DNA of 64,000 bases, taken from NCBI GenBank assembly GCA_002162095.1, contig CP021424.1, positions 1,116,001-1,180,000 on the forward strand, read 5' to 3'. The notes under the pieces were generated by a model. The model was given only the letters and a program-made list of their open reading frames with translations, did no database searches and was not told where the DNA came from. This DNA comes from Armatimonadetes bacterium Uphvl-Ar2. Its GTDB lineage: Bacteria > Armatimonadota > Fimbriimonadia > Fimbriimonadales > Fimbriimonadaceae. How positions within the stretch are numbered: position 1 is the stretch's first letter; each line of letters starts with the position of its first letter. Both the position numbers and the translations under genes were made by a program. Below are positions 22,902-28,283 of this stretch, in pieces.

Positions 22902-22913
22902 TAAGATAGACAT
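22902..22913 (+). promoter_or_regulatory. Leaderless -10 element of pcrA
   Basis: TAAGAT (22902-22907), six bases (AGACAT), then ATG 22914. No Shine-Dalgarno sequence is present and no clear -35 was found. Confidence 0.55.
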
Positions 22914-25136
22914 ATGTCTCTCCCTTTTGATCTGAACTCCCTAAATCCTGAGCAAAAACGCGCCGTGGAGTGCAACGGCGGCCCACTCATGGTGTTTGCG
23001 GGGGCCGGATCAGGGAAGACCCGGGTGGTGACCTGCCGCATCGCCAAGCTGATTGCGGAAGGGGTGCCCGCCAGCCGCATCATGGCCGTGACCTTTACCA
23101 ACAAGGCCGCCCGCGAGATGCGAGAGCGCCTGGAGCAAATGGTCGGCGAGGAAGCCAAGTACCTGTGGATGGGCACCTTCCACTCCACCTGCGCCAAGTT
23201 GCTGCGGATGGACGGGGCGGCCATCGGGATTGACCGCAACTTCGTGGTCTACGACGATACAGACCAGCTAAGCATCGTCCGCGACCTCATCAAGCGCCGC
23301 AACCTGGACCCGAAGGCGATCCAGCCGCGCGCGGTGCTGGCCGAAATCAGCCGGGCGAAGGAACGACTAGAGAGCCCCACCAAGTACGCCGAAACCGCCG
23401 CTGGCTTCTTCCCCAAGATCGTTGCAGATATCTATAAGGAATATAACGATGCCCTCCGCCGGGCCAATGCGCTCGACTTCGACGACATCCTGCTCTACGC
23501 GGTGCGTCTGCTGGAGCAGGCCGAAAGTGTGCGCGAGAAGTATCAGGAACGCTTCCTACACGTGATGGTGGACGAGTACCAAGACGTGAACATGGCGCAA
23601 TACCGCCTGACCCACCTTTTGGCGGCCAAGCACCAGAACATCATGATCGTGGGGGACGACGACCAGAGCATCTATGCGTGGCGCGGGGCGGACGTCTCTT
23701 TGATGCTGCGATTCGGGAGCGATTACCCCGATGCCCAGGTCATCACGCTCGCGCAGAACTACCGCTCCACCCCCAATATCCTCAAGGCCGCCCACAGCAT
23801 CATCCGCCACAACCACGGCCGCAACGAAAAGCAACTGTGGACCGACAACCCGGAAGGCGCAAGCGTGCGCATCCGGGGCTACGGCACCGAAAACGACGAG
23901 GCGATGGCGGTGGCAGACTCAATCCTGCGGGAAGTGCGCACGGGCAAGCGCACCTACGGCCAGTACGGCGTGCTCTACCGCACCAATGCCCAGAGCCGGG
24001 CGCTGGAAGAAGCCTTCCTCACCATGCGCATCCCCCACGTGCTGGTGGGTGGGCAGCGATTCTACGACCGCAAGGAAATCAAGGACGCAATGGCGTACCT
24101 GCGGTTGGCCTGGAACCCCGCCGACGACGCGTCCTTCCGGCGCATTGTGAATGTGCCCGCCCGGGGCATCGGGGCGACCACCGTGGACCGCATTGCGCAG
24201 TACGCCAGTAGCCTGGGCCAATCCATGCGCGACGTGATTGGCGACCCCACCTACCGCGCCACCCTGACCAAGCGCGCCGCCACCGCCCTCGGCGACCTAC
24301 ACCGCTTGCTCGAAGCCGCCACCGCCCTGGCTACCAGCGGCCCGGTGACGCCGGTGCTCCAGATTCTGCTGGACAAGAGCGGCTACCTGGATGAACTCCG
24401 CAATGAGCGCACCGATGAATCCATCAGCCGCCTGGAAAACTTGCAGGAACTCCTGAACGTGACGACCCAGTTCGACGAGGGCAACGTGGATGCCGACGAG
24501 GCCCCCACGCTCGGTGGTTTCCTTGAGCAAGTCGCATTGGTGAGCGACGTGGACATGCTGAAGGAGAGCGGCGAGGCCGTGACCCTGATGACCCTTCACA
24601 GCAGCAAGGGTCTGGAGTACCCGGTGGTGTTCCTGACCGGGATGGAGGAGGGCGTGTTCCCACACTCTCGTTCCCTGGGCGATGACCGGCAGCTAAGCGA
24701 GGAGCGCCGCCTGTGCTACGTGGGCATGACCCGCGCGCGAGAGGAACTGCACCTCACCTATGCGCGCCGGCGCAGCACCTTTGGGCAGGCCAACTTTAAC
24801 CACCGCTCCCGGTTCTTAAACGATTTGCCGGCGATGGAAGTGGATGACGATGCCGGCTACGACCACGAGAGCATGGCCCCCACCCGCCGCGTGGAATCGG
24901 AGCGCATGGGCACCTACCGGGTCATCGAGGCTCCCCGCCCGCAGGCCGAGGCCACCACGCCGTGGCAGGCTCCCTTCACCGTGGGCCAACGGGTGGAGCA
25001 CCGCAAGTTCGGGATGGGCGTGGTGATTGCCTGTAACCCGCTGAAGAACGACGCCGAGGTGACGGTGGCGTTCAGCGGCGCTACCGGCATCAAGAAGATG
25101 GTGCAGAGCTTCGCCAAACTCGAAGCGGTATCTTGA
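22914..25136 (+). CDS. pcrA: UvrD/PcrA-type ATP-dependent DNA helicase
   Basis: 740 residues. Superfamily 1A motifs: LNPEQKRAVE (Q motif), FAGAGSGKTRVVTCRIAKL (I), AVTFTNKAAREMRERL (Ia), VDEYQDVNMAQYRL (II), VGDDDQSIYAWRGAD (III), QNYRST (IV), TLHSSKGLEYPVVFLTGMEE (V) and RLCYVGMTRAREEL (VI). The C-terminal PFTVGQRVEHRKFGMGVV is the Tudor-like RNA polymerase-binding domain of PcrA/UvrD. It unwinds DNA 3'-5' in nucleotide-excision repair and transcription-coupled repair. The next gene begins within its stop codon. Confidence 0.95.
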   Translation: MSLPFDLNSLNPEQKRAVECNGGPLMVFAGAGSGKTRVVTCRIAKLIAEGVPASRIMAVTFTNKAAREMRERLEQMVGEEAKYLWMGTFHSTCAKLLRMDGAAIGIDRNFVVYDDTDQLSIVRDLIKRRNLDPKAIQPRAVLAEISRAKERLESPTKYAETAAGFFPKIVADIYKEYNDALRRANALDFDDILLYAVRLLEQAESVREKYQERFLHVMVDEYQDVNMAQYRLTHLLAAKHQNIMIVGDDDQSIYAWRGADVSLMLRFGSDYPDAQVITLAQNYRSTPNILKAAHSIIRHNHGRNEKQLWTDNPEGASVRIRGYGTENDEAMAVADSILREVRTGKRTYGQYGVLYRTNAQSRALEEAFLTMRIPHVLVGGQRFYDRKEIKDAMAYLRLAWNPADDASFRRIVNVPARGIGATTVDRIAQYASSLGQSMRDVIGDPTYRATLTKRAATALGDLHRLLEAATALATSGPVTPVLQILLDKSGYLDELRNERTDESISRLENLQELLNVTTQFDEGNVDADEAPTLGGFLEQVALVSDVDMLKESGEAVTLMTLHSSKGLEYPVVFLTGMEEGVFPHSRSLGDDRQLSEERRLCYVGMTRAREELHLTYARRRSTFGQANFNHRSRFLNDLPAMEVDDDAGYDHESMAPTRRVESERMGTYRVIEAPRPQAEATTPWQAPFTVGQRVEHRKFGMGVVIACNPLKNDAEVTVAFSGATGIKKMVQSFAKLEAVS

Positions 25137-25772: not shown

Positions 25773-26402
25773 TTAGGCGTAGGTGCGGAGCAAGCCGATG
25801 ACCCGCCCGACGATGCTCACGCTCTCGCTGGGGTAGATCTGCTCCCGGTAGGCCGGGTTAGCCGGGATCAGATGGATATCGGGCCGCTGGAACTTGATGC
25901 GCTTCACCGTCGCCTCGCCTTCCACCATCGCCGCCACCAGATCCCCGTTGCGGGCGTCGTCCTGGCGGCGCACCACCACGAGGTCACGCTCGAAGATGCC
26001 TTCTTCAATCATCGAGTCGCCCTTAACACGGAGCAAGAAAGCCTCGGGCGAACCCTTCAGCATCCCGGACGGCACGGGCAGATACTCTTCGATATGGGCT
26101 TCGGCCGTGATCGGCGCCCCCGCCGCAATCTCACCCAGCAAGGGCAAGGTGCGGAAATTGACTTCCGGCGCGACCACCGATTGGTAGTCCGGGTGCAGGA
26201 TGCGGATGGAGCGCGGCGTGTTCTCTCGCCCAATCGCACCCTTCTTCTCCAGCGCGTCGAGGTGGACCGTCACGCCCCGCAGAGAGCCAATTCCGAACTT
26301 GTCGCCGATTTCTCGAATGGAAGGCGGATAACCCACCGATCGCGTGTATTCCGCGAGGAAGGCGAGAATCTCGCGCTGTCGATCCGTCAGTCCCTTGGCC
26401 AT
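25773..26402 (-). CDS. lexA: SOS response repressor LexA
   Basis: 209 residues from ATG 26402 (MAKGLTDRQREILAFLAEYT), with AGGAG just upstream; the longer frame to 26450 reads through the promoter. The winged helix has PPSIREIGDKFGI. The S24 protease domain has the Ala-Gly cleavage site in GEIAAGAP, the catalytic Ser in GDSM and the catalytic Lys in ATVKRI. It represses DNA-damage genes and self-cleaves when RecA filaments form. A strong promoter with flanking inverted repeats lies upstream, as expected for autoregulation. Confidence 0.95.
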   Translation of the reverse strand: MAKGLTDRQREILAFLAEYTRSVGYPPSIREIGDKFGIGSLRGVTVHLDALEKKGAIGRENTPRSIRILHPDYQSVVAPEVNFRTLPLLGEIAAGAPITAEAHIEEYLPVPSGMLKGSPEAFLLRVKGDSMIEEGIFERDLVVVRRQDDARNGDLVAAMVEGEATVKRIKFQRPDIHLIPANPAYREQIYPSESVSIVGRVIGLLRTYA

Positions 26403-26410
26403 AGTGCTCC

Positions 26411-26463
26411 TAGCAGACGTGAGTATACGCACTCTTTGTCTACATGTCAAGCCTTGTCTGCTA
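26411..26463 (-). promoter_or_regulatory. lexA promoter with flanking 8-bp inverted repeat (candidate operator)
   Basis: Minus strand: -35 TTGACA (26450-26445), exact 17-base spacer, -10 TATACT (26427-26422). TAGCAGAC (minus, 26463-26456) and GTCTGCTA (minus, 26418-26411) are perfect inverted copies flanking the promoter, 37 bases apart. Neither the CGAAC-type nor the CTGT-N8-ACAG LexA box is present. Confidence 0.6.
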
Positions 26464-26552: not shown

Positions 26553-28283
26553 TTGTCGATCGTACAAATTCAAGAGCTTTTCCAAAAGAAGGGTTGCCAA
26601 GTCGTTCTGGGCATCGTGGCGCTGTTCGTCATGGTCGGGTTGCTCGTTACGGGCCAATGCGCGGGCATGAACAATGCCGGAGCCGGCCCAGACACCGAAT
26701 CCATCGTCTCGGTGGACGGCAATCGCCTGACCTTCCGCGAATACCAGTCGCTGGTGGATCGCCAGCAAGAGCAAGCGTCCCAGCAGTTCGGCGGCTTCCA
26801 GCTTCCGCAGTCCTATCTGCTCATTCAGCGCCCGCAGGTGCTCACCGGGGCCGTGCGGCTCCTCGCCTTCCAGTCCATGGCCAAGGCTAAGGGCTTGAAG
26901 GTGGACGAAGCGAGCGTGACCGCGTTCTTGGAGACCGAACTGGATGGCCAGATCAACATCGAGAAGGCCACTCTGATCAAGGAGGGCAAGCTGAAGCAGG
27001 ATGCCGACCAGGCCGCGTTTGATGCTGCGTTCAAGGCCAAGTTCACCCGCACCCCCAGCGAAATCAAGACGGAGCAACTGAACCAGATCAAGAACCAGTT
27101 CCAGACCGATCCGGTGGAAGCTGTGCGCAGCCAAACCCCGCTGATGCTGATGAACCAGATCACGGCGGGCATCAAGATCAGCGACGAAGAACTGAAGGCG
27201 TCTTTCGACAACTTCACGGTAGAGGCCATGGCATTCAGCAAGCCCGACATGCCGGAAGACGAGCGCGAAAAGAAGGCCGAAGAAGCCAAGACCGCGCTGG
27301 CCGGTGGCAAAGCCTGGGCCGACGTGGCCAAGCAGATGGCCATCACTCCGGAAACCAGCACCTTCACGCGCAGCGAGATTGAAGCCCAAGAAAACGTTAA
27401 GTCTTTGCTCGACCTCAAGGCGGGCCAGGTCAGCGACGTGCTGATGACCCCCAACGGGCCGACGATCTACCGGCTGACGAAGATTGAGCCCAAGCTGCCG
27501 AGCGACTTTGAAGCCAACAAGGAATCTCTGCGGCGCTCCCTGGCGCAGGGCCGCGCCGCTGACCAGCTGAAGAAGGAAGCAGATGCCCTGATCGCCTCGG
27601 ACAAGGTGAAGTGGAACGACAAGGGCTTCAAGCTGATGTTTGACCTCGGCATGGCCCTGGAAGACCCCAAGATGCAGGCCAGTGCCGCTGAGCGCAAGGC
27701 CCGCATGCAGGCGATCGAATCTGAAGCGGTGACGCTGGCCAACTCCACCGAGCCGGGTTCCGGCTTTGCCCCGCAGGTTCGTCTCATCGCCCAGCAGGTG
27801 TATTGGAACGACCTGACCGACCAGGAGAAGAGCACCATGCGCAAGGACCGCATCGAGGCGCTGGAAGACTTCTTCACCTACAGTGAAGATTCGGCCTTCC
27901 GCCTGGAACTCTACGACCTGTACATGGCCGAAGGCGACAAGGATAACGCCGCCCAGCAACTGGCGGCGGCCGTGGACAGCGGGATTGGCTACGACCAGAT
28001 GGGTCAACAGCAGATCAGCGAAATCCGAGGCAAGCTCTTTGAAGCGGAAAGCAACAAGCGACTCGAGCCTGAGCAGCTGGAAGCCGTGAAGAAGGCGCTC
28101 AAGACCTGGGCGGCCAACAAGGCAGACTACGACAAGGAGCAAACCGCGATCGCGGAAGAGCAAGCCAAGATCGACGCCGAGATGGAAGCCGAACGCAAGA
28201 AGATGGAAGAGGAAGACAAGAAGGCGGGCAACGCCCCTTCCAACCCCACCACGCCGACGAACCCGGCCCCGAGCAACCCTTAA
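26553..28283 (+). CDS. Membrane-anchored SurA/PpiD-like periplasmic chaperone (parvulin-type rotamase)
   Basis: 576 residues from TTG 26553, seven bases after AGGAG. A short cytoplasmic start, then one transmembrane helix (VVLGIVALFVMVGLLVTG). The SurA_N-like helical region begins IVSVDGNRLTFREYQSLVDR. A degenerate parvulin-like segment is around EKKAEEAKTALAGGKAWADV and LLDLKAGQVSDVLMTPNGPT. The C-terminus is a charged coiled coil (EEQAKIDAEMEAERKKMEEE) ending in a Pro/Asn/Thr-rich tail. It is probably a folding helper for exported proteins, tethered like PpiD. Catalytic isomerase activity is uncertain because the parvulin domain is weak. Confidence 0.75.
   Translation: MSIVQIQELFQKKGCQVVLGIVALFVMVGLLVTGQCAGMNNAGAGPDTESIVSVDGNRLTFREYQSLVDRQQEQASQQFGGFQLPQSYLLIQRPQVLTGAVRLLAFQSMAKAKGLKVDEASVTAFLETELDGQINIEKATLIKEGKLKQDADQAAFDAAFKAKFTRTPSEIKTEQLNQIKNQFQTDPVEAVRSQTPLMLMNQITAGIKISDEELKASFDNFTVEAMAFSKPDMPEDEREKKAEEAKTALAGGKAWADVAKQMAITPETSTFTRSEIEAQENVKSLLDLKAGQVSDVLMTPNGPTIYRLTKIEPKLPSDFEANKESLRRSLAQGRAADQLKKEADALIASDKVKWNDKGFKLMFDLGMALEDPKMQASAAERKARMQAIESEAVTLANSTEPGSGFAPQVRLIAQQVYWNDLTDQEKSTMRKDRIEALEDFFTYSEDSAFRLELYDLYMAEGDKDNAAQQLAAAVDSGIGYDQMGQQQISEIRGKLFEAESNKRLEPEQLEAVKKALKTWAANKADYDKEQTAIAEEQAKIDAEMEAERKKMEEEDKKAGNAPSNPTTPTNPAPSNP

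Follow-up and report, generated by a model that had tools for sequence, protein, structure and literature searches.

The lexA promoter of the window, by which we mean the whole 64-kb stretch of DNA analysed here, raises the question of which sequence its repressor reads. The first-pass annotation had described a near-consensus promoter, TTGACA-17-TATACT, bracketed by an 8-bp inverted repeat, TAGCAGAC and GTCTGCTA, and devoid of any Firmicutes- or Proteobacteria-type LexA box. The first of these statements is exact, and the second was confirmed, as none of CTGT, ACAG, GAAC and GTTC occurs within 26403-26463. It had overlooked GTAGACAAA (26435-26443), which sits between the two octamer arms and is the best conserved element of the lexA promoter. 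The reading proposed here, to which we assign a probability of about 0.85, is that this promoter would carry LexA's own operator, and that LexA would repress itself and SOS genes through GTAGAC-N4-GTCTAC.

The gene (25773..26402, minus strand) encodes an SOS repressor of 209 aa, which matches the TIGR00498 model over its full length (E 1.5e-63; 214 bits for a cut-off of 111) and is the single match to this model in the 2.63-Mb genome. The protein can also be aligned along its length with solved LexA chains, its AAGAP, GDSM and TVKR falling on AAGEP, GMSM and TVKR. In this alignment the Ala-Gly cleavage site and the Ser/Lys pair of the S24 protease domain are present, and the residues concerned are those that we take to be catalytic. 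Judged by its sequence, the LexA of the window is thus a canonical one. Its recognition-helix segment is SLRGVTVHL. The closest named LexA (97%) is that of a MAG labelled 'Chthonomonas sp. UBA2785', and MAGs named as Armatimonadetes or Fimbriimonadaceae bacterium come next; the organism belongs to Armatimonadota and, judged by these relatives, to the order Fimbriimonadales. The lexA intergenic region is common to a divergent gene (26553-28283). The product of this gene is large and matches a peptidylprolyl isomerase model weakly, with a score below the cut-off.

Read on the lexA strand, the promoter region runs TAGCAGAC-AAGGC-TTGACA (26450-26445)-17 bp-TATACT (26427-26422)-CAC-GTCTGCTA-GGAGCACT-ATG (26402-26400), the 17-bp spacer between the -35 and the -10 being TGTAGACAAAGAGTGCG. 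On the plus strand, TAGCAGAC lies at 26411-26418 and GTCTGCTA at 26456-26463. Considered alone, this 8-bp repeat is not above chance. Within the window, the octamer has no exact copy besides the two arms at lexA, and the pair with arms 25-45 bp apart occurs once in the 2.63-Mb genome, as does its backward-read version. With at most one mismatch, the octamer has 21 matches in the window for 28 expected, and exact 8-bp inverted pairs at start distances of 8-60 show no excess (89, vs 90 in one shuffle). Any meaning of the repeat must come from relatives. The octamers were found in two of 57 lexA promoters, those of this genome and of its sister genome, where both arms are exact, and the exact octamer was on this count ruled out as the operator.

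A LexA match was obtained in 59 of the 61 genomes searched, none being found in G030 and G190, relatives of 1.5 Mb, and the lexA upstreams of 57 of them were read, leaving out G021 (a distant match only) and G043. GTAGAC is present in 52 of these 57 upstreams of the order and GTAGACA in 45, five having no GTAGAC; it stands mostly right after the -35 (TTGACN, 0-3 nt, GTAGAC in 37/56). The first-pass annotation had held that absence from relatives' lexA promoters and from other SOS genes would speak against its repeat. Such absence is true of the octamers and untrue of the half-site GTAGAC, which recurs at lexA as well as at recA, imuB and uvrA. TAGCAGAC is itself the half-site TA-GTAGAC with one change, and GCAGAC ranks 11th of 4096 half-sites. 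A 16-bp palindrome was suggested by the GTAGACAWA places common to this genome and its sister, which include uvrB, uvrA, nrdJ, two DinB_2 genes and a sigma-like operon, and was afterwards tested upstream of orthologues. The full box is GTAGAC-N4-GTCTAC, often flanked by TA, which is found at each end of 16 of the 49 recA/imuB sites.

The mean best match to this palindrome, out of 12 positions, was 9.48 at recA, 9.38 at imuB and 8.66 at uvrA (29 genomes each), 8.07 at lexA (56) and 7.69 at uvrB (29), with 7.05 in 86 control stretches taken 750-900 bp upstream of the recA, uvrA and uvrB alignments. imuB had no part in finding the consensus in relatives. When the half-site was permuted, 0/179 permutations did as well in each of the five SOS sets, against 135/179 in the control. 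Matches of at least 9/12 were found upstream of recA in 24/29 cases, of imuB in 25/29 and of lexA in 20/56, so that lexA, recA and a translesion polymerase gene share one box, as expected of an SOS regulon. A gap of 4 was the best of gaps 0-12 at recA, uvrA, imuB and, narrowly, uvrB. At lexA the best gap tested was 18, with a mean match of 9.21; in 19/56 lexA promoters, 18 bp separate one site's left half from the right half of the site that follows (19 bp here). An unguided motif search, run on each set separately, recovered GTAGAC at recA, uvrA, imuB and lexA, and did not return it from the uvrB set or the controls. uvrB, with its low mean match and its lack of a recovered motif, is therefore weak as a general target.

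A scoring matrix was built from the 49 sites with at least 9/12 among 58 recA/imuB upstreams (47 without this genome), to which the lexA, uvrA, uvrB and pcrA sets contributed nothing; its scores for recA and imuB are in-sample. Stretches of 150 bp scoring at least 12 were found at lexA (18/56), uvrA (7/29), uvrB (5/29) and pcrA (8/28) and in 0/86 controls, the scores upstream of uvrB, uvrA and pcrA being taken from alignment starts and not from verified start codons. One member of the near-identical own/sister pair was left out of the orthologue sets (L003, L293, L208, L238, L393, L422), and the pcrA set comprises 28 of 30 loci, L432 being left out too for its short upstream.

At the lexA promoter of the window, three sites of this type can be delimited, all on the minus strand. 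The proposed main LexA operator, box B (26413..26428), is GTATAC-TCAC-GTCTGC, agrees with the consensus at 10 of 12 positions, extends over the -10 and the likely point of transcription start, and is identical in the sister genome. Scored with the matrix of 47 recA/imuB sites from other genomes, it is the top site of the window (15.5, the next being 8.9). In 20 mononucleotide shuffles of the window, the mean maximum was 13.1 and the highest 20.6, so that a score of 15.5 alone is not rare and the weight of box B comes from its landing on the lexA -10. Site A (26428..26443), GTAGAC-AAAG-AGTGCG, contains GTAGACAAA and combines a strong left half with a poor right half; as a whole 16-bp site it scores -8.5 and ranks 2644 of 63985 in the window. 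Site C (26446..26461), GCAGAC-AAGG-CTTGAC, is a weak site before the -35, with a good left half and a poor right half (8/12; score 1.8, rank 99 of 63985). The two arms of the repeat fall into different sites: the proximal arm (26411..26418) reads GTCTGC-TA on the lexA strand and makes up the right half of box B plus its TA flank, and the distal arm (26456..26463), TA-GCAGAC on the same strand, holds the left half of site C.

Across the genome, GTAKACN4GTMTAC with at most one mismatch occurs at 12 places: at lexA, imuB (two), nrdJ, between rmuC and a divergent gene, at two DinB_2 genes, a small operon with a sigma-like gene, a DNA methylase gene and two hypothetical genes, and once in a long frame. 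imuB is followed by a PHP-domain gene resembling dnaE2, and the gene divergent from rmuC is glyoxalase-like by reading, its NCBIfam match being below cut-off. The sister genome has 10 places, which include counterparts of eight of the 12 (lexA, both imuB boxes, nrdJ, rmuC, both DinB_2 genes and the sigma-like operon). Weaker boxes, of 9/12, stand at this genome's recA, uvrA and uvrB. The first-pass annotation had seen no obvious copy at the nearby pcrA promoter, which is correct for the octamer; a possible weak box of the GTAGAC type, ATAGACATATGTCTCT (22906..22921, plus strand; 9/12, score 8.2 or 6.5), does lie across the start codon of pcrA and is likewise present in the sister genome.

Plain counting gives no enrichment of the box, since the backward pattern has 16 places in this genome against the 12 of the box, and across 41 genomes this control was as high or higher in most; an argument from plain counts was accordingly rejected. 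Nearly all the support for the box is in where it stands. The backward-pattern places that were read, 15 of the 16, all lie inside an ORF of 100 aa or more. For the box, 10 places were tested likewise: four are in no such ORF, one (781868) is in a long frame, and the other five are at or just before a gene start, under a covering ORF of doubtful reality. We use this contrast in location as supporting evidence only.

Some of these places merit mention in their own right. A single perfect box was found in this genome (L318, ~2206-2221). It lies before a small gene and the sigma-like gene, followed by a pilin-like gene; it is kept in the sister genome and may be an unexpected SOS target. At the DNA methylase gene (PF01555), the box GTATACGTATGTCTGC (L316, ~1525-1540) is 27 bp before the gene and has no counterpart among the sister genome's places. 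The boxes of the two DinB_2 (DinB superfamily) genes are at ~1501-1516 in both L089 and L087, the start codon lying inside the box in L089.

LexA usually represses from a box placed over the promoter, and cleaves itself when triggered by RecA. The sequences observed are conserved and stand at SOS genes, from which we infer that in Fimbriimonadales a LexA dimer binds GTAGAC-N4-GTCTAC, often TA-flanked, and that its binding represses. A dimer on box B would cover the -10 and the start point, bar RNA polymerase and thereby shut the lexA promoter. Further dimers would probably occupy half-site A, which lies in the spacer, and half-site C, located before the -35, making autorepression tighter. RecA on single-stranded DNA would then provoke self-cleavage of LexA, leaving the sites empty, and the emptied sites would switch on lexA, recA, imuB with its dnaE2-like neighbour, nrdJ, uvrA, uvrB and others. 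Armatimonadota, a little-studied group, would thus probably have an ordinary SOS response, run through their own dialect of the switch.

Other explanations of the locus have to be weighed against this one. The first-pass annotation had suggested that the two arms form a phylum-specific operator, or else two half-sites for looping. Both arms are exact in the sister genome and the spaced pair is unique in this one, yet the arms are missing from 55 of 57 lexA promoters, 8-bp inverted pairs are no more frequent in the window than expected by chance, and each arm belongs to a separate 16-bp site, so that we regard either form of this idea as very improbable. What survives of the phylum-specific operator is a non-classical type of half-site that recurs in the phylum and at SOS genes; looping between the arms is not borne out, one of them forming the right half of box B and the other the left half in site C. 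Slightly less probable again is that GTAGACAAA and the sequences next to it form a promoter element, such as an extended -35 or a site for an alternative sigma factor. The fixed place right after TTGACA in 37/56 lexA promoters would suit such an element, but in imuB and many recA promoters the same box, found between the -35 and the -10 at lexA, comes after the -10, and its two halves there form a palindrome with a constant 4-bp gap. A place that varies relative to the -10 fits an operator rather than a promoter element.

A damage-responsive regulator other than LexA could also bind the box. LexA enters our reading as the presumed binder, and G021 has a box at imuB with no clear LexA found, only a distant S24-type match, in a 92%-complete assembly. 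Against this, the half-site is almost always present at lexA itself (52/57) and goes with the LexA recognition helix, and we would place such a regulator on a par with the operator built from the two arms, that is, as highly unlikely. The least credible account is that the repeat and box B are meaningless. Inverted 8-bp pairs are indeed common and the plain box counts are not enriched, but the permutation tests, the unguided motif searches and the ranking of box B in the window leave almost nothing to chance.

LexA motifs differ between phyla (PMC8565304, PMC7739468). The Bacillus subtilis or Gram-positive box is CGAACN4GTTCG (PMC3091678). The Armatimonadota box resembles it in being an inverted repeat with a 4-bp gap and an inner AC-N4-GT, and in the association of LexA with lexA, recA and uvr genes, but its half-site is GTAGAC instead of CGAAC, and GAAC and GTTC are missing from the lexA promoter. 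The cyanobacterial (Nostoc) box, RGTACNNNDGTWCB (PMC3091678), shares the gap and the inner AC/GT, and its half-site GTAC is similar to GTATAC in box B; it is 14 bp long, whereas that of Armatimonadota is 16 bp, with an extra G between GTA and AC in the consensus GTAGAC. Compared with the E. coli box, CTGT-N8-ACAG (PMC8565304), function and SOS gene set are alike, while half-sites and spacing differ, CTGT and ACAG being absent here. Finally, the Balneolaeota motif, TTACACATATTTTWTACATA (PMC7739468), is also a phylum-type motif derived from promoter comparison; it is a direct repeat that was tested by gel shift, unlike the inverted repeat described here, which is known from sequence. The Armatimonadota box is best described as a variant of the Gram-positive/cyanobacterial N4 box. 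No earlier report of it was found in the literature searched, most subscription journals being outside the reach of that search. Between phyla, LexA changes its DNA target and keeps its job, and the Armatimonadota box, the draft regulon and the matching helix add a point to this picture, in a phylum most of whose genomes used here are metagenome-assembled. The box also offers a means of predicting the damage response of Armatimonadota genomes.

The relation between helix and site could be followed in 168 of 177 loci, those dropped having no N-terminal alignment, a short upstream or an identical upstream. GTAGAC or GTCTAC was found within 130 bp of lexA in 91/104 cases with an R-G helix and in 5/64 with other helices, counted over many phyla; related sequences are not independent, so that the p-values of this comparison overstate its significance. 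In Armatimonadota outside the order (n=39), the half-site accompanies the R-G helix in 26/32 cases and other helices in 2/7; outside Armatimonadota, the figures are 1/3 and 3/57. Some lexA promoters in other families of the phylum carry a full box between the -35 and the -10, for instance GTAGACTGTCGTCTAT and GTAGACATTGGTCTGC. Neither half-site is present within 130 bp of lexA for 13 of the 104 R-G LexAs. These include one family (f23; L372, L373) in which lexA apparently lies close behind another gene, an arrangement that may account for the absence there. Tentatively, and with the odds somewhat against the proposal as a whole, one may envisage a helix code: LexAs with S-[LI]-R-G-[VA] would read GTAGAC wherever they are found, and Fimbriimonadales lexA promoters would keep two abutting boxes with one good half-site each, 18 bp apart (19 here), autorepression then working through side-by-side asymmetric dimers and not through one symmetric box. 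The relation is made testable by the same helix class going with the same half-site in several families, while other classes mostly lack it.

Two minor observations concern lexA upstreams. TATGRCAY occurs 70-149 bp before lexA in relatives (e.g. L006, L013 and L022), and in 26/57 lexA upstreams in all; on the other strand (RTGYCATA) it resembles a -10, and it is perhaps the promoter of the divergent gene. Outside Armatimonadota, the lexA of a candidate division WWE3 MAG (L186) encodes the helix SIRGASVHL and has both GTCTAC and GTAGAC at its promoter.
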